Source of the DNA: an uncultured Chthonomonas sp.
GTDB taxonomy: Bacteria > Armatimonadota > Chthonomonadetes > Chthonomonadales > CAJBBX01
DNA length: 56,727 bases
NCBI GenBank assembly: GCA_903951425.1
Contig: CAJBBX010000073.1
Location: 1-56,727 of the forward strand
Direction of reading: 5' to 3'
Under the pieces are notes generated by a model. It made no database searches and was not told where the DNA came from. It was given only the letters and a program-made list of their open reading frames with translations. The position numbers were made by a program, and so were the translations under genes. Shown here piece by piece: positions 2,784-56,727 of the stretch (positions are counted from its first letter, which is position 1; each line of letters begins with the position of its first letter).

Positions 2784-4943
2784 CTATTGCCGGGCGCGGT
2801 AGACGTGGACGGCGTAGGGCTCGAACGTGTCCGTGATGCGCCCGGCGGCGGCCTTCACTTCCCTGCCCTCGAAGAGCACGGCGGCGCGGCTGAACTCGCC
2901 CGCGCCGAACGCGGCCCTGACCCTGGTTCCGGTCTTGTTGACGGCTATGGCCACCGCACCTGTCGGCGTGCGGCGCATGGTGACGTCCAGCGATGCGGGC
3001 GCGGCAACCGCCACGACCGGGGCCACGATGGCATCGCGCAGGAGCAGCATCTCGCGGTTCAGCTCGCGGGTGAAGCTCCAGAGGATAGGGTCGGCCTCCA
3101 GGCATAAGGGGTATCCCTTCCCCTCGGAGTAGGAGTAGACCGCGAAGGCGGTGGCGCCGTGGTTGATGGAGAGGTAGGCCATGCAGCGCAGCTCCTGCGG
3201 CGTGGGCATGCGGCCCTTTACGTCGCCGTAGCCTTGCAGCGCGATCTGCATGGGCTTCCGGCCCGCAGTCGCCCGAAGCTTGTCCAGTGTCTCCGGCACC
3301 AGCGTGAGCGGGGCGTGGGGCACCGGGTAGGTATCGACCGAGACGATGTCGCACGGCCCGGAGTACTCGGCGAACTTCGCCGGGAAGCAGAAGTTGAGAA
3401 GCACCGGGTGGTTGGGGTCGAGCTTGCGCACGAGCCGGCACGCCGCCTCCAGCTCCGCCACCGGCACCCCGGCATCCGGCTCGTCGTAGAGCTCCCAGAG
3501 CAGTAGCGCGGGGTGGCCCTTGAGCTTCTCCACGCCGCGCTCGAGCGCCGCCAGGTCGAAGCCTTTGCCGATGCCCTTGTAGAAGTAGGGGTGGAAGAGG
3601 ATGCCGTAGCCGTAGACGTTGTTGCGCCACGCCTCGTCCAGCATGGCCTGCACGCCCTCCAGCGTGTCGCCGCCCCAGCAGTCGACGCTGTTGTAGCCCT
3701 GGGCCTTCACGGCGGCCGTCCCCGCTGCGTGGTAGAGCTTGCGCGGCACGAAGGGCTTGCCGTTCACCAGCAGCCCGGCGGGCGTTGCCTCCACCTTGCG
3801 GATAGGTTCCAGCCGGTCGCGGATCGCCGGGATCACCGAGAAGCCTGCCGAGAGCGACGCGCCTGCCAGCCCAGCCGTGAGCGTGTACCGGCCGGGCGGC
3901 AGCTTGCCCACAGGCAGCGCGACCTGCACCGAGCCGCCCTTGGAGCGGGCCTCGGCCGTGAGAAGCGTCCGGGCGCCTGACGAGACGCGCAGGCGCAGGA
4001 CGGGACGGGCGGCGGCCGCGTCGGGGTCGTTGATCTCCGCGACGGCGCGGGCCTGCTCGCCGGGCGAGAAGCAGACGCCGCTGAGCCGGAGCGTGACCGG
4101 CTCAGTCACCCGCGCCGAGGCCGTGCGCATGAAGAGCAGGAGGCCCTTCGGCCCGTGGACCTCGGTCAGCACCGAGTAGCGCTTGCCGCGGAGGAGCTTC
4201 AGCGGCGCGGCCAGGGCGTTGGGACCCGGGGCCAGGCGGAACTCGCGGGCCGCGGTGACCCTGGCCTTCGAGCCCTCCTCGCGGGCCGTGACGCACAGCG
4301 AGACCCGTACGGGCTGCGCGGCGGTGGCGGCGAGATGCACGGCGGCCTTACCCGCGATGGCGTTCAGGCGGAACGCCCCGAACTCCACACCCGAGGCCCC
4401 GACCCGCACGGTGGCGCTCCGGTAGTCCTGGTCGGTGTTGTCCGGTGCGGCGTCGGGGTCGTTGGTCACCAGCAGCACGTCCAGGTAAGGCGCCTGGCTG
4501 CTGCCTGCGGCGGGCCGGATCGTCAGCGTGGAGGAGGGCCCGGCGGCGAAGGGCCCCAGCCGTCGGCTCCACGCGAGCATGGTGCCGGGCCTGTCGAACT
4601 CGGTGATGCCGACCGGGCGGCCGTCCACCGTAGCCTCGACGCTGGCCTGCGGGGCCGGGAAGGCGAGCTGGCGCACAAAGAGGTAGAGCGGGGCCGCGGG
4701 CAGGCCGTCCAGCGCGTAGGTCACCGACGGGTTGGGCGAGGCGTCGAAGATGGCGGTGCGCCCGCCGGATGGATGGCCCATCCACGACGTGAAGCCCTCG
4801 TCGCGAAACGCCATGCCGGAGGAGGCCGCCGGCGCCTCGGCCTCCACGTACCGGTAGACCTGATCCCGTGGCTGAGCAGATGCCCGCGCCGTGAGCAGAT
4901 GCGCACCCAGCGCGGCGGCAATGAGGCCCGGAGGCAGCTTCAC
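2784..4943 (-). CDS. Secreted TIM-barrel glycosidase-like protein with N-terminal beta-sandwich domains
   Basis: A 719-residue protein. The GTG start at 4943 is chosen because it overlaps the upstream stop as GTGA and is followed by a signal peptide (residues 1-24, ending ARASAQ). Residues about 30-160 look like a carbohydrate-binding beta-sandwich, 170-370 like further sandwich domains, and from about 385 (GLLVNGKPFVPR) a GH-A-type TIM barrel begins. The motif WELYDEPD (about 482-489) matches the strand-4 acid/base of clan GH-A. At the expected strand-7 nucleophile I see QIALQGYGD (about 566-574), with Gln where a Glu would be needed, so either catalysis is unusual or I have misaligned the strand. 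Substrate is not predictable. It is translationally coupled to the decarboxylase gene upstream. Confidence 0.78.
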   Translation of the reverse strand: MKLPPGLIAAALGAHLLTARASAQPRDQVYRYVEAEAPAASSGMAFRDEGFTSWMGHPSGGRTAIFDASPNPSVTYALDGLPAAPLYLFVRQLAFPAPQASVEATVDGRPVGITEFDRPGTMLAWSRRLGPFAAGPSSTLTIRPAAGSSQAPYLDVLLVTNDPDAAPDNTDQDYRSATVRVGASGVEFGAFRLNAIAGKAAVHLAATAAQPVRVSLCVTAREEGSKARVTAAREFRLAPGPNALAAPLKLLRGKRYSVLTEVHGPKGLLLFMRTASARVTEPVTLRLSGVCFSPGEQARAVAEINDPDAAAARPVLRLRVSSGARTLLTAEARSKGGSVQVALPVGKLPPGRYTLTAGLAGASLSAGFSVIPAIRDRLEPIRKVEATPAGLLVNGKPFVPRKLYHAAGTAAVKAQGYNSVDCWGGDTLEGVQAMLDEAWRNNVYGYGILFHPYFYKGIGKGFDLAALERGVEKLKGHPALLLWELYDEPDAGVPVAELEAACRLVRKLDPNHPVLLNFCFPAKFAEYSGPCDIVSVDTYPVPHAPLTLVPETLDKLRATAGRKPMQIALQGYGDVKGRMPTPQELRCMAYLSINHGATAFAVYSYSEGKGYPLCLEADPILWSFTRELNREMLLLRDAIVAPVVAVAAPASLDVTMRRTPTGAVAIAVNKTGTRVRAAFGAGEFSRAAVLFEGREVKAAAGRITDTFEPYAVHVYRARQ

Positions 4944-6358
4944 GCCTGCACGCTCCCGGCCACGGCGCGGATGATCTCCCAGGCCTTGCGGACGTGGTCG
5001 AGGGTGACGGTGGTCTGGGCGATCACGAGGCGCAGGGCGTAGCGGCCGCGGAGCTTGGTGTGGGTGATGTAGAGGTCGCCGGTGCGGTTCACGCGGTCGA
5101 GGATCTCGGCGTTGAGGCGGTTGAGCGCCTCGTCGTCGAGGACGGGGCGCACGTGGCGGAAGCAGACGAGGCCGAAGGGCGACGGGGCCATCACCTCGAA
5201 CGCCGGGGCCGCCTCGACCCACGACCGGAACTCCCGCGCCCACTCGATGTGGCTTCGAACCATGGCCTGCAGCCCCTCGACGCCATAGCTGCGGATGACG
5301 AACCAGAGCTTGAGGGCACGGAAGCGGCGGCCCAGCGGCACGCCCCAGTCGCGGTAGTTGTTGACCACCGCCTGGTGCTTGGTCTTGAGGTACTCGGGCA
5401 GGATCTCGAAGGTGCGGATGAGGGCCTCGCGGTCGCGGACGAAGTAGGCCGAGCAGTCGAAGTTGGTGAAGAGCCACTTGTGCGGGTTGAAGACCAGGCT
5501 ATCGGCCTGCTCCAGCCCGTCCGCCAGGGGGCGCACCTCGGGGAGGATGAGCGCCGAGCCGGCGTAGGCCGCATCCACATGGAGCCAGAGCCCGTGCCGC
5601 CGGGCCACCTCGGCGACGGCTGACAGGGGATCCACGGCCGTAGAGCTGGTGGTGCCGAAGGTGGCGACCACGGCCAGCGGGCGCAACCCGGCGGCGAGGT
5701 CCGAGCGGATCGCCTCGTCGAGGGCTTCGGGGAGCATGGCCAGGTTCGCGTCGGTGGCGACACGGCGCAGGTTGTCGGAGCCGAAGCCCGCGATGCGGAC
5801 CGCCTTATCGATGGAGGAGTGGCCCTCGGTGGAGGTGTAGACGGTGAACGGCGCCTCGCCGCCCAGGCCAGTGAGGTTGGCGCCGTAGCCTGTGGCCCTC
5901 TCGCGGGCGGAGAGGAGCGCGGCCAGCGTAGAGGTGGAGGCCGTATCCTGGATCACGCCCTCGAAGGCGTCGGGCAAGCCGACCATCCCGCGGAGCCACT
6001 CCATGCAGCGCTGCTCCAGCTCGGTGGCGGCGGGCGAGGTCTCCCAGAGCATACACTGGGCGCCCAGCGTGGCCATGAGCATCTCGGCCAGCACCGAGGG
6101 CGGCGAGGAGTTGGCCGGGAAGTAGGCGCAGAAGAGCGGGTGCTGCCAGTGCGTCATGCCGGGCATGATGGCGCAGCGGAAGTCCGAGAAGATGGCCTCG
6201 AACCGCTCGCCCCGAGCAGGCGGACCGGGGGGGAGCTTGGCGAGGACCTCGCCGGGGGCCACCTGCGCCTTGGCCGGGTAGGCCTCGACGTTCTCCAGGT
6301 AGTCGGCCATCCAGTCCACGAGGTGGTGTGCGTGCGAGCGGAACTCGTCGGGGGTCAT
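4940..6358 (-). CDS. Group II pyridoxal-dependent amino acid decarboxylase (aromatic-L-amino-acid type)
   Basis: A 472-residue protein, the usual length for the family. The start at 6358 follows an AGAGAGG ribosome site. The PLP lysine is in NPHKWLF (about K295), with the ring-stacking histidine in STEGHSS (about H180) and the pyridine-binding aspartate in LHVDAAY (about D262). THWQHPLFCAYFP near residue 70 matches the substrate-pocket segment of aromatic-amino-acid decarboxylases. It should convert an aromatic amino acid (Trp, Tyr, Phe or DOPA) to the amine plus CO2 in the cytoplasm. Exact substrate is not resolved; glutamate seems unlikely given the aromatic-type motifs. Its stop overlaps the GTG of the next gene, an odd partnership with secreted carbohydrate proteins. 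Confidence 0.93.
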   Translation of the reverse strand: MTPDEFRSHAHHLVDWMADYLENVEAYPAKAQVAPGEVLAKLPPGPPARGERFEAIFSDFRCAIMPGMTHWQHPLFCAYFPANSSPPSVLAEMLMATLGAQCMLWETSPAATELEQRCMEWLRGMVGLPDAFEGVIQDTASTSTLAALLSARERATGYGANLTGLGGEAPFTVYTSTEGHSSIDKAVRIAGFGSDNLRRVATDANLAMLPEALDEAIRSDLAAGLRPLAVVATFGTTSSTAVDPLSAVAEVARRHGLWLHVDAAYAGSALILPEVRPLADGLEQADSLVFNPHKWLFTNFDCSAYFVRDREALIRTFEILPEYLKTKHQAVVNNYRDWGVPLGRRFRALKLWFVIRSYGVEGLQAMVRSHIEWAREFRSWVEAAPAFEVMAPSPFGLVCFRHVRPVLDDEALNRLNAEILDRVNRTGDLYITHTKLRGRYALRLVIAQTTVTLDHVRKAWEIIRAVAGSVQA

Positions 6359-6386: not shown

Positions 6387-7040
6387 TTACGGGGTGAGCA
6401 GGGCGGACAGCGCCGCCAGGTTCTCGGCGTCGGCAAAGATGGCGCGAACCGGGATGGTGAAGCCGGCCACGGCGTCGCACGTCACGCTACCGTCGTGGAG
6501 CTTGAGGGCGAGGCGGTACTCGCCGTCGATCGCGGTGTACTTCTCCACCGTCTCATCGTCGGGGTCGACGATCCAGTACTCGCCGACGCGGTGGGCGGCG
6601 TAGTCGACGAACTTCACGCCCCGGTCGCGATCCTCGGTGGAGTGGGAGAGGATCTCCACGATGAAGTCCGGCGCGGGGAAGCGCCGCTGGTCGGGGGCGA
6701 AGCCGGCAGCCCGCTCGGACGAGAAGAAGCAGAGGTCGGGCTCGTAGTCGTTGCGCGTCAGCGAGACCATCAGCTTCTCGAGGCCGACACTGCCCAGCCC
6801 GTGACGGCGAACATGCGCGGAGAGCAGCATACTGAGACGGGTCAGGATGTTGTTGTGCGCCAGCGATACCGGTGAATGCACGATCTCACTCCCGTTGATG
6901 AACTCCACTTTGCGGTCCGCAGGCGCGTCGTCCACGAACCGGGCGCGCCGAAGCTGCTCGTTGTCGCGCAGGCGGACGAGCCGGCTGATGTAGTCATCCA
7001 GTAGCGGCGAATCCACGATGGGCTGAAGGACCGCATTCAT
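6387..7040 (-). CDS. Uma2 family (DUF820) PD-(D/E)xK endonuclease-like protein
   Basis: A 217-residue cytoplasmic protein with a strong AGGGGAGG ribosome site before the start at 7040. The core has the family pattern: EPDLCFFSSER, then PDFIVEILSHST with the PD and E of the nuclease fold, then DRGVKFVDYAAHRVGEYWIVDP and a short C-terminal strand. Uma2 proteins form large paralogous sets in cyanobacteria, Chloroflexota, Planctomycetota and similar bacteria. They are predicted restriction-like nucleases and no cellular role is settled. It sits 28 bases upstream of the decarboxylase gene and may be cotranscribed by read-through. The 71 bases upstream (7041-7111) contain an AT-rich TATCGTATATCC on the minus strand that could be a -10 region. 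Confidence 0.9.
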   Translation of the reverse strand: MNAVLQPIVDSPLLDDYISRLVRLRDNEQLRRARFVDDAPADRKVEFINGSEIVHSPVSLAHNNILTRLSMLLSAHVRRHGLGSVGLEKLMVSLTRNDYEPDLCFFSSERAAGFAPDQRRFPAPDFIVEILSHSTEDRDRGVKFVDYAAHRVGEYWIVDPDDETVEKYTAIDGEYRLALKLHDGSVTCDAVAGFTIPVRAIFADAENLAALSALLTP

Positions 7041-7111: not shown

Positions 7112-7924
7112 CTATATGTATGCGCGCCGAAGCATCTCGGCCGCGCCGGCGTCGAGCTCCTCCATGCGGCGGACCTCGTCGAACCGTGCCAGCAGGTCGT
7201 TCGCTCGCAGGTTCCGCTTCTCGGCGCCCTGCACGTCGTGGATGATCCGCCCGCCGTGCATCATGATGAGCCGATCGCCCAGGTGGACCGCCTGCTGCAT
7301 GGAGTGCGTGACCATGAGCGTCGTCAGGTTGTCGCGGCCGACGACCCGCTGGGTCAGGCGGATCACGTTGTCGGCGCTACGCGGGTCCAGCGCCGCCGTG
7401 TGCTCGTCGAGCAACAGCAGTTCCGGGCGGCGCCATGTGGCCATGAGCAGCGTGAGGGCCTGCCGCTGTCCGCCGGAGAGGGAGCCGATCTCGGTGTCGA
7501 GGCGTCCCTCCAGCCCCATGCGGAGGTCGCCCACGCGCTCCTGGAACTCGCGGCAGAGCGAACGCGGCAGGGCCCAGCCCAGGCCCCGGCGTGTGCCGCG
7601 CTGGGTGGCCATGGCGAGGTTCTCCTCGATGCTGATACCCGGCGCCGTGCCGCTGAAGGGGTTCTGGAAGACCCGGCCGATGAGCCTGGCGCGGCGATGC
7701 TCGGGCCAGCGCGTGATGTCGTGGCCGGCCAGCGAGATGCGCCCCGTGTCGGGCAGGAACGTGCCCGCCACGGCGTTGAGCAGCGTGGACTTGCCCGACC
7801 CGTTGGTGCCGATCACGATGACGAAGGAGCCGGCCTCGACATTCAGTTGCACCTCCTGCAGCGGACGCACCTCGTTGCGCGTGCCGGCGTGGAAGGTCTT
7901 GCTCAGGTGCGTGATCTCAAGCAT
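7112..7924 (-). CDS. ABC transporter ATP-binding protein
   Basis: A 270-residue ABC ATPase. Walker A is GTNGSGKST (about 39-47), the signature is LSGGQRQ (about 150), Walker B is LLLLDEHTAALDP, and the switch histidine is in MVTHSM. It energises the importer encoded by the three genes upstream. The start ATG at 7924 overlaps the permease gene by 8 bases, so translation is coupled. The gene is the last of the operon. Together with a PF04392-type binding protein and a BPD_transp_2-type permease, this matches the arrangement of the tryptophan importer TrpXYZ of Gram-positives, but substrate cannot be assigned here. Confidence 0.93.
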   Translation of the reverse strand: MLEITHLSKTFHAGTRNEVRPLQEVQLNVEAGSFVIVIGTNGSGKSTLLNAVAGTFLPDTGRISLAGHDITRWPEHRRARLIGRVFQNPFSGTAPGISIEENLAMATQRGTRRGLGWALPRSLCREFQERVGDLRMGLEGRLDTEIGSLSGGQRQALTLLMATWRRPELLLLDEHTAALDPRSADNVIRLTQRVVGRDNLTTLMVTHSMQQAVHLGDRLIMMHGGRIIHDVQGAEKRNLRANDLLARFDEVRRMEELDAGAAEMLRRAYI

Positions 7925-8855
7925 GGGGCGCCTCGCGCTTGGGGGTGCGGATCCTGGCCAGCATGCCTGGGAGGATGAGCGCTCCCAGCACGAAGGCCGC
8001 CGTGATCAGCTTCAGGTCGTTGGGGTCCAGACCAAGCCGGAGGGCGATGGCCACGAGAAGCCGGAAGAGCAGCGAGCCCATGACGGCCCCGGTGATGGCC
8101 AGGCCCAGCCGTCGGGTCCGTACCAGCGTCTCACCGATGATGACGCTTGCCAGGCCCCACACCAGCATGCCGAGGCCCATCTGCACATCCGCGAAGCCCT
8201 GGTACTGGGCCAGGAGGGCGCCCGCCAGTCCGGACAGGAAGTTGGAGAGGGCCAGCGTGATGATGACCATCAGGCCCGTGTCGACGCCCAGCGCCCGGGC
8301 CATCTGCGGGTTGTCGCCCGTGCAGCGCATGGCCGTTCCCAGACTGGTGCGGAAGAAGAGATAGAGCATCCCCGAGACGATCACCACCAGTCCCAGCGCA
8401 CTGAGCAGGATGGCTGCGTCGCGGGTGGCGACGTCCCAGCCCATGACGTTCAGCGGCCGGCCCGAGGGCGTCAGTCGGCTCGCCAGGGCGTCGGCGTAGT
8501 CCGTAGCGTTGCGCACGGAGAGGAGCGCGATGTTGCTCCGGCCCATGACGCGCAGGTTCACGGAGTACAACGCCGTCATGACGAGGATGCCGGAGAGCAG
8601 GCCGTGGATGCTGAAGCGCGTGTGCAGGATGCCGGTGACGGCCCCGGCCACGGAGCCCGCGACGGCCCCGGCCAGCGTGGCCCAGATCGGCGGGACGCCG
8701 GCTACGAGCAGCGTCGCCGCCACGGCCGCGCCCAGGGTGAGCGAGCCCTCCACGGTGATGTCCGCGAAGTCGGCAATACGGAACGAGATGTAGACCCCGA
8801 TGGCGAGCAGGGCCAGGATCAGCCCGATGGTCAGCGCTCCGATCAGCAGGTTCAC
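7917..8855 (-). CDS. ABC transporter permease (BPD_transp_2 type)
   Basis: A 312-residue integral membrane protein with roughly eight to ten hydrophobic segments, starting at the first residues (LLIGALTIGLILALLAIGVY). Its conserved core includes ADITVEGSLTLGAAVAA and the AMRCTGDNPQMARALGVDT loop, which resembles the ATPase-coupling loop of LivH/RbsC-like permeases. The GTG start at 8855 is chosen because AAGGAGGGA precedes it and it overlaps the upstream stop as GTGA. It would form the inner-membrane channel of the importer with the ATPase downstream. A homodimer is likely because only one permease gene is present. Confidence 0.92.
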   Translation of the reverse strand: MNLLIGALTIGLILALLAIGVYISFRIADFADITVEGSLTLGAAVAATLLVAGVPPIWATLAGAVAGSVAGAVTGILHTRFSIHGLLSGILVMTALYSVNLRVMGRSNIALLSVRNATDYADALASRLTPSGRPLNVMGWDVATRDAAILLSALGLVVIVSGMLYLFFRTSLGTAMRCTGDNPQMARALGVDTGLMVIITLALSNFLSGLAGALLAQYQGFADVQMGLGMLVWGLASVIIGETLVRTRRLGLAITGAVMGSLLFRLLVAIALRLGLDPNDLKLITAAFVLGALILPGMLARIRTPKREAPHA

Positions 8856-10132
8856 GCGGGTCCCTCCTTGCCCGGCGCCTCGGTCTCGCACGCGGTGATG
8901 GGGGCGATCCATGCGGCGCCGCGGACGAAGCGGCTGTCGCCGGCGCCCGCCGAACCCCGGTCGTCCCGCAGCAGGTGCAGGGCGCCGTCGGGCCCGCCGA
9001 CATCGAACAGCCTGCCCACGGCGGTTTCCGCGGCGCTGAGCGTCACCGGCATGGCGCGGTATGCGAATGCGGCGGCATGGTAGTGCGCGTGCAGGTCGGC
9101 GCAGTCATCGCCAATGGGCCGCAGGAAGGCATCTAACGCGCCGTCGGGCTTCCGAGCCGCCACGCCCACCACGAGGGCCAGCGACCGGGGCCAGATCACG
9201 TCCGGCGTGAAGCTGACGCGGCGGCGGATGCCCGGGAAGTCGAAGAAGGCGCCGTCGCCGGGCTCGGTGGGAGACTGCTTCATCGATGCGCCGACCAGGC
9301 CGGCCGACTCGGCGATGATCAGGACGGCGACGGCGTCGGCGCCGACGGCCGACAGCGCGGCGGCTGTGAGGCCCGCCAGCGAGAGGGTGGCCTCCGGGTC
9401 CGCACGCTCGAAGGTGAGAGCGTGGCTGAAGGCGCCGCGGCAGGCCAGCGCGTAGAGCGCCTGCACCTGCGGCACGAAGGCGCCGGCGGCGAGCAGGTAG
9501 TCCGGGGCCGACGCCTTGCCGGAGGGTTGATGGATGGCCGCTCCGCCCGCCGCCAGGATCTCGCCGCATCGTGCGCCGGCTCCCCTGGGGTCGTCGCCCA
9601 GCGCACCGATGCCCACGACCAGATCCTCGACGCCCGCGGGCAGCGTGGTCAACGCGTCGGCGGAGAGGCGGCCCTCGGCCAGGTCGCCGGGCCTCCCGAC
9701 GAGGCGGCAACGGAAGCCGCCTGAACCGGGTAGCGGCGTGACGATGACCTTGCAGCCCTCGGCCTCCAGCGTGACCGCCTCGGGCGCGGCCGCCTCTTCA
9801 GGAGCCGATGAGGGTTCGTCGGACGAGGAGGCCCGCACGTTCAGGGCGTCGAGCAGGCCGGAGAGCTCCAGTACGCGGTAGACGGCGTCGGACGGGTTGA
9901 CGATCTCCAGCAGGCCACCGATTGCCTTCAGGTCCTTGCCGGACTTGATGAGGATGCGGATGCCCGCCGAGCTGAGGAAGTCCACGCCGGATGCGTCGAG
10001 CTGCACGCGCCTGGCGCCGGCGCGGACCACGTCGGCCAGTTCGCGGTCCAGCGCGTCGGCCGTGGAGGCGTCCAGACGGCCCGTGACGCCGACGATCCAG
10101 GCGCCCGGGGTCTGCTGCTTGGTGATCTCCAT
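8852..10132 (-). CDS. STAS-domain protein with a large uncharacterised C-terminal domain, inside an ABC operon
   Basis: A 426-residue protein. Residues 1-105 form a STAS domain of the anti-sigma-factor-antagonist/SpoIIAA type: GRLDASTADALDRELA, then VQLDASGVDFLSSAGIRIL, with a serine at the usual phosphorylation position (SSAG). An acidic linker (106-120) leads to about 300 residues that I do not recognise, rich in alternating strands and helices and ending near ITACETEAPG. No membrane segment is seen. It lies between the binding-protein gene (3-base gap) and the permease gene (GTGA overlap), so it is stoichiometrically tied to the transporter. By analogy with STAS domains on SulP carriers or in stressosome partners, it may gate the transporter or signal substrate status. 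That is inference. Confidence 0.85.
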   Translation of the reverse strand: MEITKQQTPGAWIVGVTGRLDASTADALDRELADVVRAGARRVQLDASGVDFLSSAGIRILIKSGKDLKAIGGLLEIVNPSDAVYRVLELSGLLDALNVRASSSDEPSSAPEEAAAPEAVTLEAEGCKVIVTPLPGSGGFRCRLVGRPGDLAEGRLSADALTTLPAGVEDLVVGIGALGDDPRGAGARCGEILAAGGAAIHQPSGKASAPDYLLAAGAFVPQVQALYALACRGAFSHALTFERADPEATLSLAGLTAAALSAVGADAVAVLIIAESAGLVGASMKQSPTEPGDGAFFDFPGIRRRVSFTPDVIWPRSLALVVGVAARKPDGALDAFLRPIGDDCADLHAHYHAAAFAYRAMPVTLSAAETAVGRLFDVGGPDGALHLLRDDRGSAGAGDSRFVRGAAWIAPITACETEAPGKEGPA

Positions 10133-10135
10133 GGG

Positions 10136-12100
10136 CTAGTCCACCACCTTTCCGGCTCGCTTGATCACCGGGTCCGGGATCCGCATGCCCAGCGCGGCCG
10201 CGTTGCGGCGGCTGACGACGATGCGCGAGGTCTTAAGCGGCTCAAAGGGCATACCGGCGGGGCTCTCGCCCCGGATGACGCGGGCCATCATCGCGGCGCA
10301 CTGGCGTCCTGCGTCCTCGTAGTCGCGCGCAAGCGCCACCGCCGCGCCTCCCTCGGTCACCGTGCCCGTGGCGAAGCCGAGCAGCGGGACGCGGGCCTTG
10401 CGGGCCGCCGTGGAGATCGCCGAGAACGAAGTCAGGCAGACGTTGTCCGAGAGTTGGCAGATGGCCTCGACGTTGCCGGCCAGAGCATCGGCGCCGTCGG
10501 GCACCTCGGAGGTGCCCGAGACGGGAACGGTGACGAGCTCCAGCCCGGCCTGCCTGGCCGCCGCCGCCATCAGGTCGCGGTAGAGCACGGAGTTGATCTC
10601 CGACGGCACAAAGAGCGTCCCGATCCGCCGAACGTGGGGCAGGCACTCCTTCAGGAGGGCCATCATGCCCACGAAGTCGCTGGCCACCGTCACGCCCGTC
10701 ACGTTGGGCATGTGGTCGGTGTCGGACTTGCCGGCGCCTGCCGCGACCCCGCTGCCCACGCTGGTGAAGACGATCGGCGTATCCTTGACCTTGCCGATGG
10801 CGACCTGCAGAGCGGGCGTTGCTGTGGGAACGATCATGTCGGCCTGCGCCGTGCGGGCGGCATCGATGAGGCCGCTGAGCGTGGCTGTATCGCCCTGCGC
10901 GCAACCCCGGTGGATCTCGTAGTCGCGCCCCTTCACCAGTCCCTGCTGCTGTAGGCCTTCGAACAGGCCCTTCCGGGTCTCTTCCATGGTGAGGGAGTCG
11001 ACGTACTCAATGACGTGGATGCGCCACTTGCGGGCCGGGGGAGGCGCGGCTGTGGTCTGCGCGGCGCCCTGGGATCGCTTGGTCTTCTTGCCGCCGGCAT
11101 CGATGACGATGGCTGCGCGGCTGAGGACGGCGGGAGGGATGGTCCACCGCTCTTCCAGGCCCTTGAGCGCTGAGAGGTTTACGGCGAGTTGCTGCGGCAC
11201 GACGTTCTTGACGGGGATGTCGGCCATCTTCTTGCCGCGCAGGACGTCGGCGGCCATCTTGCCGGCGGCGCGGCCGACCTCGAGGTAGTCGGCGCCCAAG
11301 CAGGCGAAGGCGCCGTCGTCGATGTGTGTCGGGCCGTTGGTGATGACCGGGATTCGGGCGTCGCGGGCGGCCTTGACCACGGCCGCCATGCAGGCTTCCA
11401 CCGTGTTGTCGCCGCCCACCCAGAGGGCCTGGACATCCTTGGCAGCCACAGCGGCCGCAGCCTCGGCCACGCCTGTGGGACTGTCCACGGTCACCTCGAC
11501 CAGCCGGATGCCCAGCTTGGAGCACTCATCACGAGCCTCCCGCAGGCACGCCTCGGAGCAGGCCTCGGCGGGGTTCCAGACGACGCCCACGGACTTGAGG
11601 GACGGCAGCAGTTCGCGGGCCAGGCGGAAGGTCTCGCGGACGGGCTGGAACGTGCCGATCCCGGCCAAGTGCGCGGGATGCCCGGTCCGGGTGATGCCCA
11701 CTCCCGCGCCGAAGGGATCGGTCACGGTGCAGAAGACGTGCTGCATCTTGCCCTTGGTGTTGGCGGCGGCCATCACCTGCAACGAGGGGGTGCTGGCAGT
11801 GACCACTAACCGGAAGCCGCCCTCGAGGATCTGCTTGGCGATGCTGTTGGCCGTGGCCAGGTCGCAGGCGGCGCTGAACTTCTGGATGCGGAGGTCGCGG
11901 CCCAGCTGGAAGCCGGCCTCCTCGAGGCCCATCTGCACGCCGGCGATGGTCTCATCGAGTGCGGGCCGCTCGGTGATCTGGAACAACGCGATCGTCTCGG
12001 CCTTCGGCGCCCTGCGGCGAGAGCCGTCCATGACCAGAAGGATCGCCGAGGCGATGATGATCATCACCAGGCCCGGCAGGAGCCGAGTCAGCGTTCGCAT
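10136..12100 (-). CDS. Membrane-anchored ABC substrate-binding protein with two tandem PF04392-type domains
   Basis: A 654-residue protein. The start at 12100 follows AAGGGAGG. Residues 8-24 are one hydrophobic segment followed by RRR, so an uncleaved anchor is more likely than a cleaved signal. Two binding-protein units follow, about 37-330 and 355-640. They share the same landmarks: an EGLQQQG/MGLEEAG helix, then VVTASTPSLQV against IVPTATPALQV, then HVFCTVTDPFGAG against IVFTSVGSGVAAG, then a VGVVWNP/IGTLFVPSE strand. Members of this family (for example TrpX) normally have one unit of about 320 residues, so this is a doubled form. It is the first gene of the importer operon. Confidence 0.88.
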   Translation of the reverse strand: MRTLTRLLPGLVMIIIASAILLVMDGSRRRAPKAETIALFQITERPALDETIAGVQMGLEEAGFQLGRDLRIQKFSAACDLATANSIAKQILEGGFRLVVTASTPSLQVMAAANTKGKMQHVFCTVTDPFGAGVGITRTGHPAHLAGIGTFQPVRETFRLARELLPSLKSVGVVWNPAEACSEACLREARDECSKLGIRLVEVTVDSPTGVAEAAAAVAAKDVQALWVGGDNTVEACMAAVVKAARDARIPVITNGPTHIDDGAFACLGADYLEVGRAAGKMAADVLRGKKMADIPVKNVVPQQLAVNLSALKGLEERWTIPPAVLSRAAIVIDAGGKKTKRSQGAAQTTAAPPPARKWRIHVIEYVDSLTMEETRKGLFEGLQQQGLVKGRDYEIHRGCAQGDTATLSGLIDAARTAQADMIVPTATPALQVAIGKVKDTPIVFTSVGSGVAAGAGKSDTDHMPNVTGVTVASDFVGMMALLKECLPHVRRIGTLFVPSEINSVLYRDLMAAAARQAGLELVTVPVSGTSEVPDGADALAGNVEAICQLSDNVCLTSFSAISTAARKARVPLLGFATGTVTEGGAAVALARDYEDAGRQCAAMMARVIRGESPAGMPFEPLKTSRIVVSRRNAAALGMRIPDPVIKRAGKVVD

Positions 12101-28710: not shown

Positions 28711-30375
28711 CTACTTAAGCAACCGCCGTACCTTCGCCTCTTCGGCTTCGTCCTTCAGGCGGCCGCGGTCGGTCAGGACGCGTGGGGTTACGAAGATGAC
28801 CAGTTCGGAGTCGACGGTGCTGGTCTTCTTGCTGCGGAAGGGGATGCCGAGGATCGGGATGTCGCCCAGGATCGGCACCTTCGTGCGGGTCTGGTACTCC
28901 TGCTTCTGCACCAGGCCGCCGATCATGATGGTCTCGCCGTCCTTCACGCGGACCGTGGTCTCGGCTCGGCGGGTGGAGAGGACCGGCAGGCCGGTCTCGC
29001 GCTCCTGCTCGCTGATGTTGCTCACCTCGGGCTTGAGCGTCACGGTGATCTCGCCGTTGCCGCCCGTCCAGGGCCGCACCTCCAGCTTCACGCCCACGTC
29101 AACGCCCTGGATGCGCTCCTGCTTGCCGCCGTACGAGGTGACCTCCACCTTGATGAACTTGGTCTGGCCGATGAAGATGTCGGCGGCCTGGCCGTTCACC
29201 GCAGCCATGCGCGGGTTGGCGCGTACCTTCGCCTTGCCCTCGGACACGAGCGCCTTGAGGGCCGCCTGGAAGTCGGTGGGGAGCGTGCCGATGGTGCTGT
29301 AGGTGATGTCGCCCGTAGCCGAGTTGGTCCCGGCGGTCATGCGGTCGTTCTGGAATGCAGTGGCCAGCGAGGCGGTCAGGTCGCTGGTGGAGGCCACCTC
29401 CACGGCCAGCGCCTCGATCATGATCTGCGGCGGGGCCACGTCGACCTTGCCGAAGTCGGAGCGGATCTTGTCCAGCATCTGCCCCGGCGCGGTGACCACC
29501 ACGGCGTTCTGCGCCTCGTTGACGTGCAGGAAGCTGTAGAGGAACGTCGGCAGCAGGCCGGACGCGGTCTGGGCCTTGATGTACTTCATGCGGTAGGACT
29601 CGGTGCCGGAGAGGCGATAGGTGGCCAGGTCGACCGGTGTTCCGTCGCAGATGGTCCAAATGCCGTCCTTCTTGGAGGCTGCCAGCCCGCACGAGGCGGC
29701 GATCCCGGTGACGGCGTCGTCCACCGCCATGCCATCCAGCGACATGGAAACATCGCGGTCCTTCACGGAGTCGTCGATCACCATGTCGGCCCTGGCGGTC
29801 TGCGAGACGGCGGCCAGCAGGGCCAGGAGCTTCGCCTTGGTGGCGTCGATGCTCAGGAGCCCGCCCTTCATCTGCACGTCCATGCCCCCCGCGGCCGCCG
29901 TGCCTCCGCCGGCGCTCCCCGTGGCCGTCCGCGTGGCGGTATTGCGCTCGCTGTTCACGGTGATGATGACGCTCTGCTGGTCGGTGCTCTTGGCGAAGCG
30001 GATGGAGGCGGGCTCATACATGGCCACGACCAGGTTCACGCCGACGCCCTCCTTGGCGCTCTGCGGGACCGCGAGCTGGAGGTAGCTGACCGGGTACTTG
30101 CTGATGTCGATGAAGGTCTTGCCGACCTGCGACTTGGCGTTGGTGAAGACGATGCTCACCTTCTGGCGCGCCCCGCCACCGTAGATCATGCCCCAATCGT
30201 TGTTCTCGGGCATCCAGTCGAGGACGCCGTCGGCCTTGATGCTGATCTGCACCCCGTTGCTCAGCTGCTGGGCGTCGATGCTCTGGATGTTGCAGAACGC
30301 CGCCGTCTGGGCGTGGCAAGCCGAGGCCAGGGCCGTCATGGCGGCGATCAGCGCAAGCGCCGGATGGGTTCGCAT
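28711..30375 (-). CDS. Secretin (type II/III secretion or PilQ-like) with N-terminal AMIN-like domain, third of three
   Basis: A 554-residue protein with signal peptide 1-22. AFCNIQSIDA..VQISIKADG (about 27-48) resembles an AMIN domain, which in PilQ binds peptidoglycan. Further on are an STN/N0-like unit (about 190-245), an N1-like unit (about 255-305) and the secretin gate (about 310-540), with the signature VPILGDIPILG (500-510) and LVIFVTPRVL. It would form an outer-membrane ring channel. The start ATG at 30375 is served by AGGAG that overlaps the TAG stop of the gene upstream. It is the last gene of a three-secretin operon. No pilotin, ATPase or pseudopilin gene is adjacent. Confidence 0.9.
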   Translation of the reverse strand: MRTHPALALIAAMTALASACHAQTAAFCNIQSIDAQQLSNGVQISIKADGVLDWMPENNDWGMIYGGGARQKVSIVFTNAKSQVGKTFIDISKYPVSYLQLAVPQSAKEGVGVNLVVAMYEPASIRFAKSTDQQSVIITVNSERNTATRTATGSAGGGTAAAGGMDVQMKGGLLSIDATKAKLLALLAAVSQTARADMVIDDSVKDRDVSMSLDGMAVDDAVTGIAASCGLAASKKDGIWTICDGTPVDLATYRLSGTESYRMKYIKAQTASGLLPTFLYSFLHVNEAQNAVVVTAPGQMLDKIRSDFGKVDVAPPQIMIEALAVEVASTSDLTASLATAFQNDRMTAGTNSATGDITYSTIGTLPTDFQAALKALVSEGKAKVRANPRMAAVNGQAADIFIGQTKFIKVEVTSYGGKQERIQGVDVGVKLEVRPWTGGNGEITVTLKPEVSNISEQERETGLPVLSTRRAETTVRVKDGETIMIGGLVQKQEYQTRTKVPILGDIPILGIPFRSKKTSTVDSELVIFVTPRVLTDRGRLKDEAEEAKVRRLLK

Positions 30376-30384
30376 GGGGTTCTC

Positions 30385-32082
30385 CTAGGTGGTGCCCGGA
30401 AGCGTGCGGGCCGTTACGAAGACGCCCAGCCGGGTCTCCGCGCGGCGCGCGCCGTGGCGATTGAAAAGCCGGCCGATCAGCGGAAGATCGCCCAGCACGG
30501 GGATCCGAGTGTGCGCCGGCTCGTCCTGGACGATGTCGAGGCCGCCGATGAAGAGCGTCTCGCCGCTCTGGATGCGCATGAGCGCACCGGCCGTGCGCGT
30601 GGAGACGGTGGGTGCGCCGGTGGCCGCGTCGAGTTCAACGATGTTGCTCACCTGCGGGATCACGCCCAGCAGGATCGAGCCGCCGCCGCCCGCCGTAGCC
30701 GATACCGTGAGGCGGGCGCCCACCTCCACGGGCATCAGGACGGTGTCGTAGGCATTGACAAACGTGTTGTAGGTGATCGCCTTGATGTACTTCTGCTGCC
30801 CGGCGAAGAGCGACGCGGCCCTCCCGCTGAGGACGACCGCCTTCGGCTCCGACTTGATGCGCACTCGGCCCTGGCTGCTCAAGGCGCGCAGCCGGGCCCC
30901 GAAGTCGGCCTCGAGCGCGCCGACGCTGGTGTACCGTATGCCGGAGCTGTCGGGCGATGCCACCGCGTCGCCGAAGGCACCCCGGCCGCGCAGCTCGGGT
31001 AGCGCCTCCAGGTCGTCGGACCGGTTGTACTCCACGGTGGTGGCCGTCACCTCGATCTGCGCCACCGGCTTGTCCAGGCGGCCGATGTCTTCGCGGAGCC
31101 GCCGCACCAGGCCGGCCGGGCCGAAGACGCTGAGCGCGTTCTCGCCGGGGTTGGCGTGGATGTAGCGGAGCAGGAACTCCGGCAGGCTGTTGCGGATGGC
31201 GACGGCAGACCCGTATCGTACGCGCACGGTCTCCAGCGCCTCCACGTCGTAGGCGGCCATGCCCGCGGAGTCGCCGTCGGCCACGCGCACGGTCCCGTCC
31301 CGCCGCTCCAGCGCCAGTCCGTAGGTCTGGGCGATGGCGTCCAGGGCGTCATCCAGGGGAGCTTCGTCCAGCCGCATGCTCGCCTGCCGGTCGAGACCGG
31401 GGTCCACCAGCACCGTCGTGCCCGACACGGTCCCGACGCGGGCCAGCAGTTCGCGCAGGTCGCCGTTCAGGGCATTCACCGAGACCCGCCCCGCCCGGCC
31501 CGTCACTTCCAGCTCGCGGGGGTCTGCGGGCGCGGCCTTGCGGCGCACGGCCGGCGGCTGGGTGCGCCGGTCGCTGGTCACGAGGATCACGATGGAGCGC
31601 TGGTCCTGGCTCACCTCGAGGGAGATCTTGGGCACCGGCATCTCGTTGCCGCCGGTCTCCCAGTTCTCGTTGCCCGACTTGAAGAGCGAGACGACGCCCG
31701 GCGTCAGCAGGTTGACCCGAAGCGCCAGCCCAATGCCGTCCTGCGCCCCGACGGGGACGGACGCCTCCACATGGCTCACCGGGTAGACGCCCACGTTGGC
31801 GAAGCTGCCCACCTGCGAACGGGCGTTGGTGACCCAGATCGGCACCGTGTCGATGAGCCGGTGGAGTTTGTCCCACTGCCCCTTCTGCGCCGCCTCCAGG
31901 TCGAAGAAGATGCCCGGGTCGGCCACCACGCGCATGATGCCGTCGGCCCGGATCGTCACCTGCACGGCGTTACCGCGCCGCACCGATTCGATGGACGTGA
32001 TGTTGCAGTAGACGCGCTGGGCGTGCGAAGGCGCGCAGGCGAGGAGCAGCAGGGCCGCCGGTAGGAACCGCCTCCAGGTCAC
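30385..32082 (-). CDS. Secretin with N-terminal AMIN-like domain, second of three
   Basis: A 565-residue protein. The GTG start at 32082 lies just 1 base after the stop of the preceding secretin gene, and a signal peptide (1-21) follows. Its N-terminus parallels that of the next secretin: VYCNITSIESV..VQVTIRADG and WVTNARSQVGSFANVGVYPVS match CNIQSIDA and FTNAKSQVGKTFIDISKYPVS, so the two look like tandem duplicates. The secretin signature is IPVLGDLPLIG (527-537), then LGVFVTARTL. The middle is more diverged than in the other two (for example RKAAPADPRELEVTG). There is no clear ribosome site, so translation probably depends on coupling to the upstream gene. Confidence 0.88.
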   Translation of the reverse strand: MTWRRFLPAALLLLACAPSHAQRVYCNITSIESVRRGNAVQVTIRADGIMRVVADPGIFFDLEAAQKGQWDKLHRLIDTVPIWVTNARSQVGSFANVGVYPVSHVEASVPVGAQDGIGLALRVNLLTPGVVSLFKSGNENWETGGNEMPVPKISLEVSQDQRSIVILVTSDRRTQPPAVRRKAAPADPRELEVTGRAGRVSVNALNGDLRELLARVGTVSGTTVLVDPGLDRQASMRLDEAPLDDALDAIAQTYGLALERRDGTVRVADGDSAGMAAYDVEALETVRVRYGSAVAIRNSLPEFLLRYIHANPGENALSVFGPAGLVRRLREDIGRLDKPVAQIEVTATTVEYNRSDDLEALPELRGRGAFGDAVASPDSSGIRYTSVGALEADFGARLRALSSQGRVRIKSEPKAVVLSGRAASLFAGQQKYIKAITYNTFVNAYDTVLMPVEVGARLTVSATAGGGGSILLGVIPQVSNIVELDAATGAPTVSTRTAGALMRIQSGETLFIGGLDIVQDEPAHTRIPVLGDLPLIGRLFNRHGARRAETRLGVFVTARTLPGTT

Positions 32083-32083
32083 G

Positions 32084-33418
32084 CTACGGCGCCTTGCCCT
32101 TGGGAGCGTCGGCCTGCAGGAAGCGCTCGCGCAGCTTCTTCTCGTCCTCGGCGGGCAGGTGGCCCGTGGTGGAGAGGATGCGCGGCGTGATGAAGATGGC
32201 CATCTCGGTGCTGGACTCTTTCGAGTCGGTGGTGCGGAAGAGCGGCCCGAGGATCGGCAGGTCGCCCAGGATCGGCATGCGGGTCCGGGTGCTGATGGTC
32301 TCCTGCTGCGTCAGGCCGCCCAGGATCACCGTCTCGCCGTCGCGGACGCGGACCGTGGTGTTGGCCCGGCGCGTGCTCCGGTCGGGCAGGCCCGTCTTGG
32401 GGTCCAGGGCGCTGAGGACGCTGATCTCCGGGTGGATATCAACGATAATCTCGCCCTCGCCGCCGGTGAAGGGCGTCATGTCCAGCCGTACTCCGGCGTC
32501 GATGGAGTTGGTCTGGATCATTCCCCCGTCGGAGCTACCCGTGATCGCGACAGGCGTGCTCAGGTAGCGCTGCTTGCCGATGAAGATGCTGGCTTTCTGC
32601 CCGCTCACCGTGGCGATGCGCGGGTTGGCCTTCACACGGGCCTTGCCCTGGGTCACCAGCGACTTGAGGCCGGCGCTGAAGGCGTCGGGCAGCGTCACCA
32701 GCGTCCGGTAGAAGAGGCTGCCCGCCGGCGTGTCCACGGCGACCTGCCGCGTGGCGTTGGTCCAGTCCCACTTCAGCGAGAACTCGCGGGCGCCGCTATC
32801 GGTGAACTCCACCATGAGCACGTCGATCATGATCTGGGAGGCCGGGATGTCGAACTGGCGGATGTCCTCGCGGAACTTGCGCAGCACGTCCGGCGGGGCC
32901 GAGAGGATGACCGAGTTCTGCTCTGGGTTCGTCTTCACATGGTCCTGCAGGAATACGGGCAGGAGCGACTTGGCGTTGGGCGCCAGGACGTACTGCGTGC
33001 TGATCGAGTCGATGTCGCTGAGCAGGTACGACGAGGGTGTCTTCGGGATGCCCTCGCTCACCATGAAGATGCCCTTCACCTGGCGGCAGGCGAGGCCGTA
33101 GGCGCTGACCACGGTATCGAGGATATCGGTGGCCTTGCGGCGGGTCAGGTTCACCGTGATGGTGCGTTTGACCGTGTCGTCGATCATGATCTGCAGGCCG
33201 GTCTTGCGGGCATACCGGTTGAAGAACTCATGGGCATCCACGCCCGCCGCGGCGACCGAGACGCCGTCGGCGCCCACGTCGACGATCACCCGCTCGGGGG
33301 CGGGCTGGGCCGCGGGGGCCGCGGGCGGAGGGGCGGGAGGGTTCTGGGCCATCGCCGCGGGACCGGCTGCGAGACACAGACAGGCCGCAGCCAAGATGCA
33401 GAGGACCGGCAAGCGCAT
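32084..33418 (-). CDS. Secretin, first of three, lacking the AMIN-like domain
   Basis: A 444-residue protein. The start at 33418 follows GGGAGAG; signal peptide 1-24 (ending AAMAQ) precedes a Pro/Ala linker. An STN/N0 domain (about 65-127: FFNRYARKTGLQIMIDD) and an N1 unit lead to the secretin domain, with QIMIDVLMVEF, the signature MPILGDLPILG (381-391) and MAIFITPRIL. It is about 110-120 residues shorter than its two downstream paralogues because it has no AMIN-like N-terminus. The operon start is probably in 33419-33524, but I see no clear promoter. Heteromeric or alternative outer-membrane channels are both possible. Confidence 0.9.
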   Translation of the reverse strand: MRLPVLCILAAACLCLAAGPAAMAQNPPAPPPAAPAAQPAPERVIVDVGADGVSVAAAGVDAHEFFNRYARKTGLQIMIDDTVKRTITVNLTRRKATDILDTVVSAYGLACRQVKGIFMVSEGIPKTPSSYLLSDIDSISTQYVLAPNAKSLLPVFLQDHVKTNPEQNSVILSAPPDVLRKFREDIRQFDIPASQIMIDVLMVEFTDSGAREFSLKWDWTNATRQVAVDTPAGSLFYRTLVTLPDAFSAGLKSLVTQGKARVKANPRIATVSGQKASIFIGKQRYLSTPVAITGSSDGGMIQTNSIDAGVRLDMTPFTGGEGEIIVDIHPEISVLSALDPKTGLPDRSTRRANTTVRVRDGETVILGGLTQQETISTRTRMPILGDLPILGPLFRTTDSKESSTEMAIFITPRILSTTGHLPAEDEKKLRERFLQADAPKGKAP

Positions 33419-33499
33419 ATCACTCTCCCTGCCGGGTCTCTTCGACGATGACGAGCCCGACCCTTGCACCGCGTGGAACGCGGACGTACGCAACTAGTA

Positions 33500-56714: not shown

Positions 56715-56727
56715 GTTCCTTTCCGGG

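Follow-up and report, generated by a model that had tools for sequence, protein, structure and literature searches.

What does a STAS gene do inside the operon of an importer that is otherwise built from three parts? The question is raised by four genes on the reverse strand of the window, i.e. the whole stretch of 56,727 nt analysed here (positions 1-56,727 of contig CAJBBX010000073.1), which belongs to a genome of the little studied phylum Armatimonadota. The operon encodes a substrate-binding protein (SBP), a STAS protein, a permease and an ATP-binding cassette (ABC) ATPase. The operon is real and conserved, and it represents a variant of a known importer that has been little described. The preferred reading, to which we give about an even chance, is that of a TrpXYZ-kind importer that probably takes up an aromatic amino acid and has a dedicated cytoplasmic STAS subunit, RsbV-like and phospho-switchable, that would couple transport to partner switching. 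In the set of 291 Armatimonadota genomes that was searched, genomes are labelled G### and families f#; G000 is the window's own genome and f1 its family.

Gene order and conservation of the operon

The four genes are tightly packed (Table 1). A gap of 3 bases separates the SBP and STAS genes, the STAS and permease genes overlap by 4 bases (GTGA), and the permease and ATPase genes share 8 bases (ATGCTTGA); no promoter-sized gap is found between any of them. Coordinates and junctions were re-read and agree with a preliminary description of the locus that had been made from the sequence alone. The SBP, STAS protein, permease and ATPase named there were recovered by Pfam as well. What it had overlooked is that the STAS domain makes up only the first quarter of its protein, followed by a long C-terminal part, and that the binding protein, correctly placed in PF04392, consists of two halves with an N-terminal membrane anchor. 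Because the ATPase keeps its Walker A (GTNGSGKST), signature (LSGGQRQ), Walker B (LLLLDEH) and H-loop (THS) motifs, all complete as read from the translation, the importer should be active. An Rfam search of the window gave no match to a T-box or other known riboswitch upstream of the operon; a T-box is known upstream of a streptococcal trpX.

Table 1 Genes and protein domains of the importer operon and its downstream neighbours (positions in the window)
Feature	Position	Strand	Description
Substrate-binding protein (SBP)	10136..12100	-	654 aa; two tandem PF04392 (ABC_sub_bind) halves; N-terminal membrane anchor
STAS protein gene	10132-8852	-	426 aa; fourth subunit
STAS domain (residues 1-103 of STAS protein)	9824..10132	-	PF01740, TIGR00377
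C-terminal domain of STAS protein (residues 117-426)	8852..9784	-	without known family; conserved in 7 genomes
Permease	7917..8855	-	PF02653 (BPD_transp_2), E=4.4e-30; GTG start overlaps the STAS stop codon
ABC ATPase	7112..7924	-	270 aa; PF00005, E=9.8e-27
Uma2-type PD-(D/E)XK protein	6387..7040	-	nuclease-fold; PF05685, E=7.3e-33; downstream, same strand; association uncertain
Pyridoxal phosphate (PLP)-dependent decarboxylase	4940..6358	-	aromatic-amino-acid type; PF00282, E=1.8e-107; downstream, same strand, two genes past the operon

The full STAS protein is present in 7 of the 291 genomes, namely three from f1, G059 (f5), G260 (f43), and G069 and G071 (f15). The order SBP-STAS-permease-ATPase, for which the preliminary description had proposed to search other genomes, is found in all seven carriers and hence in four families; G059, G002 and G071 each have the operon in two pieces on different contigs, the ends of which gave the order. 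Absence of the STAS gene from close relatives, named there as a point against its reading, is not seen: both sequenced congeners and three further families carry the gene. The junctions of the window are identical in the two other genomes of the genus and are tight elsewhere, with a GTGA overlap in G059 and an ATGA overlap in G069 and G260. G068, a third f15 genome, shows a permease, an ATPase and a histidine kinase gene on a contig that starts inside the permease, which leaves the STAS position out of view. In G260, SBP and STAS protein seem to be fused in an open frame of 1088 aa, an impression created by a run of N in the assembly: the SBP has its own stop codon and the STAS gene lies in another frame.

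Within the STAS group, identity to the window permease is 59-66% outside the genus. Permeases from STAS operons form one clade (ultrafast bootstrap 97, SH-like approximate likelihood ratio test 98), and the ATPase tree agrees (97/99). Between congeners, the STAS domain has a ratio of nonsynonymous to synonymous substitution rates (dN/dS, NG86) of about 0.24 and the C-terminal part one of about 0.16; both parts are therefore real, selected coding sequence under purifying selection. The comparison of genomes supports the STAS gene as a lasting part of the importer operon.

Importers of the TrpXYZ or PF04392 type, such as those with TrpX of Streptococcus, CD0873 of C. difficile and VC_1101 of V. 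cholerae, have in common with the operon a PF04392 SBP, a PF02653 permease and an ABC ATPase. In contrast to these, the SBP is duplicated here (except in the f15 members, in which the tandem duplication is missing) and transmembrane-anchored, and the STAS gene is placed between SBP and permease. The earlier statement that importers of this type normally have three parts holds in eight relatives. Two of them, G102 and G109, fall outside the STAS clade and encode SBP, permease and ATPase with nothing between; the other six are plasmid-borne three-gene operons (Actinomycetota, Bacillota, Beta- and Gammaproteobacteria), to whose ATPases the window ATPase is about 49-55% identical. A STAS gene is also missing in G065, where the SBP gene is followed directly by the permease gene and then the ATPase gene, and in G161, which has a permease-ATPase pair and an SBP elsewhere in the genome. 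Other genera of the window's family have neither a close permease nor any PF04392 gene, i.e. the importer is missing altogether.

The distribution bears on whether the STAS gene has anything to do with transport. A signalling gene without relation to the importer, caught in the operon of a single ancestor and retained only for co-expression, would fit a single clade of seven genomes in a single phylum, and STAS genes are common in Armatimonadota. Such a bystander is nevertheless most unlikely, given that the gene has retained its place and its coupling in four families whose permeases are only ~60% identical, that it is under purifying selection, and that the C-terminal domain occurs nowhere else in the 291 genomes at E≤1e-3 save for two fragmentary matches at the threshold.

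The two parts of the STAS protein

The PF01740 match of the STAS protein (E=1.4e-17) is confined to residues 3-103 of 426, and TIGR00377 scores above its cut-off. A full-length AlphaFold2 model was computed from an alignment of four sequences and is usable for the STAS part only, which reaches a predicted local distance difference test (pLDDT) of about 70-88. The top fold match of the domain is RsbV (6m36; Z 17.6, 100 residues, 1.5 Å), followed by other anti-sigma antagonists and SpoIIAA with Z 14-17, while MlaB chains score Z 10.8-12.6. In an alignment by eye, S55 (within LSSAGIR) falls on the phosphorylated serine of RsbV/SpoIIAA, at the position of RsbV S56. The motif SSxGIR is kept in every member for which the STAS part is available (LSSAGIR or ISSVGIR). 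The modelled fold supports a domain that is RsbV/SpoIIAA-like more than MlaB-like, and S55 is a putative phospho-acceptor. Fold and serine both agree with the anti-sigma-antagonist kind of STAS protein proposed before. The earlier reading of the operon as a transporter with a built-in signalling or gating subunit is supported in part; gating and a physical place of the STAS protein in the transporter are predictions.

The STAS fold and the conserved serine are shared with RsbV/SpoIIAA and thus with the RsbU-RsbV-RsbW partner switch, and kinase and phosphatase genes are located nearby in some lineages. Different from that system are the placement inside an importer operon, the fused C-terminal domain and a locus without a sigma factor. 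RsbV/SpoIIAA-type proteins are single-domain proteins, whereas the 426 aa of the protein described here include a second domain of 310 aa.

The operon of the ABC transporter MlaFEDB likewise includes a gene for a cytoplasmic STAS protein, MlaB, in which the phospho-site is also occupied by Ser/Thr. This protein consists of one minimal STAS domain and acts with an MlaE-type permease and an MCE protein (MlaD). In contrast, an RsbV-like STAS domain is fused here to a domain of 310 residues and combined with a PF02653 permease and a periplasmic SBP; none of the operon proteins matched an MCE domain in Pfam. MlaF remains in the MlaFEDB complex only if MlaB is there, and the phosphomimetic exchange Thr52Glu in MlaB weakens MlaF binding (PMC7367683); Thr52 is the residue equivalent to S55. 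The STAS protein could accordingly have a constitutive structural role and hold the ATPase stably on the permease, with phosphorylation being irrelevant. The dependence of MlaF on MlaB for joining its complex (PMC7367683) is a precedent, the STAS gene is always found inside the operon with coupled overlaps, and a distinct C-terminal tail with Y-[ILV] at its end is common to the ATPases of the STAS clade. On the other hand, the fold is nearer to RsbV/SpoIIAA, at Z of about 16-18, than to MlaB, at 11-13, kinase and phosphatase genes adjoin the operon in two lineages, and plain TrpXYZ-type importers manage without a STAS protein; a purely structural role is considered unlikely. A special C-terminal extension of the ATPase as a docking site for the STAS protein was rejected, since the tails of plain relatives are similar and only the last ~15 residues differ.

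In the study of the MlaFB structure, no further STAS-ABC pair was found in the PDB, and a wider occurrence of such regulation was raised as a question (PMC7367683). ABC transporters do not appear in a review of STAS-only proteins (PMC8256260), and mce/Mla operons with STAS genes as well as fusions of STAS domains to DUF140 permeases were noted earlier (PMC1810536). A STAS protein paired with a PF04392 importer was not found in the open-access literature, in which MlaB-MlaF was the sole documented STAS-ABC pair found. A STAS domain is also tied to a transporter in the SulP/SLC26 family; there, it is the C-terminal part of the same polypeptide as a secondary transporter, whereas here it belongs to a separate subunit of an ABC system.

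The C-terminal ~310 residues have no Pfam match (up to E=5) in any of the seven members, and no match to the domain was found among plasmid sequences. FIST, PP2C or another known sensory domain was rejected for this part, which is without a Pfam or NCBIfam match. Invariant in the seven sequences are H350, H352, H386, G383 and W408. Modelled alone from an alignment of four sequences, the domain reached a pLDDT of 51 and a predicted template modelling score (pTM) of 0.59. All 13 entries that this low-confidence model matches with Z≥6 are acetolactate decarboxylases (ALDC) or PPC/DUF296-type proteins, and the next entry has Z 3.5. The two groups of proteins constitute one fold superfamily. The best fold score of the same low-confidence model is Z 9.9 over 123 residues at 5.5 Å, and its best Foldseek hit has E 0.013. 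ALDC binds its metal by three histidines in the arrangement HxH...GGH; the H-x-H formed by H350 and H352 would suit an ALDC/PPC-like fold, and the GGH part is absent by eye. A profile-profile comparison (hhalign) against ALDC and PPC alignments gave a probability under 1%, and the PF03306 and PF03479 profiles were detected in none of the seven members up to E=5. We regard the ALDC/PPC-like fold as a lead, not an assignment.

Following this lead, the C-terminal domain might act on the imported compound as an enzyme or bind it, and the STAS domain would do no more than tether this domain near the pore. The uniform class of the fold matches, the invariant H-x-H and the PLP-dependent decarboxylase downstream within the genus are in line with such a function. 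It is rendered quite improbable by the low confidence of the model, the weak Foldseek value, the null profile comparison and the missing Pfam match and GGH motif.

Signalling genes near the operon and a model of coupling

Genes that could act on an RsbV-like protein are located beside the operon in two lineages. In G260, a Xan_ur_permease, a stand-alone STAS protein, an RsbW-type HATPase_c_2 protein and a PDC-HAMP-SpoIIE phosphatase are encoded on the divergent strand. The SBP gene of G069 and that of G071 are directly preceded by two small STAS genes. Downstream, a Cache-type hybrid histidine kinase gene starts inside the last 8 bases of the G069 ATPase gene and is followed by a response regulator with a SpoIIE phosphatase domain; counterparts of both are located downstream on the other contig of G071. 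SpoIIE genes number 1-5 per genome, and one to three in the genomes just described; by a rough estimate, a SpoIIE gene would lie within about 5 kb of the operon by chance in ~1% of cases per genome, a proximity that is seen in two lineages. Because SpoIIE genes are few per genome, chance is an unlikely explanation.

In the model of coupling that we prefer, SBP, permease and ATPase would import an amino acid, and the STAS protein would be made in step with the permease via the overlapping start. It would dock on the ATPase or the permease at the cytoplasmic side, analogous to MlaB on MlaF, or else hold a kinase. An RsbW-type kinase would phosphorylate S55 and a SpoIIE-type phosphatase would remove the phosphate, giving a switch of which one state docks on the transporter, and transport would thereby be coupled to the partner-switching pathway. 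The C-terminal domain may serve as a ligand-sensing or docking module. The model is built on gene order, conservation within one clade, purifying selection, the STAS fold, the serine, and partner-switching or phosphorelay neighbours in two lineages. It is plausible; the interaction, the phosphorylation, the direction of coupling and the substrate are what we infer in it. Taken this way, the importer with its fourth gene suggests a tie between nutrient uptake and signalling. A more far-reaching version, which we hold to be possible and rather doubtful, would make it the first ABC nutrient importer with a dedicated partner-switching subunit, in which an RsbW/SpoIIE-controlled STAS protein couples amino-acid uptake directly to signalling and the C-terminal part is a new sensory domain.

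The same neighbours would also serve a flow of information in the opposite direction. In a relay of the transceptor kind, passage or binding of the substrate would alter the STAS protein, which would release or capture an RsbW-type kinase and so change gene expression. The RsbV-like STAS domain, the nearby RsbW, SpoIIE and histidine kinase genes, and the membrane-anchored SBP in all STAS-carrying systems examined are compatible with it. However, no sigma factor or output gene was identified at the locus, and the sequence does not tell the two directions apart. The relay appears improbable, and signalling onto transport is slightly favoured over transport onto signalling.

Several observations weigh against the coupling model. 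The window itself has no nearby RsbW or SpoIIE gene; the RsbV/RsbW/SpoIIE cluster of its genome is located on another contig, and a partner would therefore act in trans. Partner-switching neighbours are likewise absent from the short contigs of G059. The substrate is deduced from distant homologues. Furthermore, the STAS gene is present in just seven genomes, all from one phylum, and because of this the association of STAS protein and importer may go back to a single acquisition. A scan of contigs with two short patterns matched three Armatimonadota relatives only and says nothing of absence in other phyla.

The operon represents an independent and evolutionarily stable case of a STAS gene joined to an ABC transporter, here one quite unlike Mla and with a periplasmic SBP whose binding site is known from homologues. 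Two lineages bring candidate kinase and phosphatase genes, which makes phospho-regulation of ABC transporters by STAS proteins directly testable. The locus also exposes an uncharacterised domain of ~300 residues that has so far been seen only in the setting of an importer operon.

A further STAS gene of G000 is located on contig C66 (L099:3486-4067, about 75.5-76.1 kb). It encodes an NHLP (nitrile-hydratase-like) leader-peptide domain of ribosomally synthesized and post-translationally modified peptides fused to a STAS domain. An NHLP leader-like open reading frame (ORF) is found before it, and a stand-alone STAS gene and an acetolactate-synthase-like gene after it. RsbW-type and SpoIIE genes are encoded farther along the same contig.

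Likely substrate and other features of the genome

Both halves of the SBP are matched by PF04392 (E=3.7e-102, two stretches). The N-terminus is hydrophobic without a lipobox, indicating a membrane anchor. The TrpX model NF041285 matches the SBP with a score under the equivalog cut-off, and the best sequence matches of the SBP in the PDB are 3LKV, 6HNI and 3LFT, which are Phe-, Tyr- and Trp-binding proteins. These three solved PF04392 proteins contain Phe, Tyr and Trp as ligands, and the preference among them depends on two positions (PMC6816091). In an alignment by eye, the position of CD0873 E263 is occupied by G in half 1 and A in half 2, and that of Y279 by Y in both halves; a small residue combined with Tyr is the arrangement of the Phe binder VC_1101. 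The PF00282 decarboxylase gene is conserved within the genus only, where G001 and G002 have it beside the operon. An aromatic amino acid is the best guess for the imported substrate because of the matches to Phe, Tyr and Trp binders, the binding-site positions and the downstream decarboxylase.

A second PF04392 SBP of G000 is encoded on contig C76 (L098:3723-4712). A lipobox seen by eye marks it as a lipoprotein. The ORFs listed around the gene include neither a permease nor an ATPase, and a response-regulator/PAS/GAF protein is encoded about 2.4 kb downstream.

Apart from the operon, the minus strand of the window contains an unusual tandem of three consecutive secretin genes (28711-33493), with PF00263 in each of the neighbouring ORFs. 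Also on the minus strand, positions 53736-56726 encode a large protein of surface type that combines DUF7948 with SBBP beta-propeller repeats and bacterial Ig-like domains and runs off the contig end.

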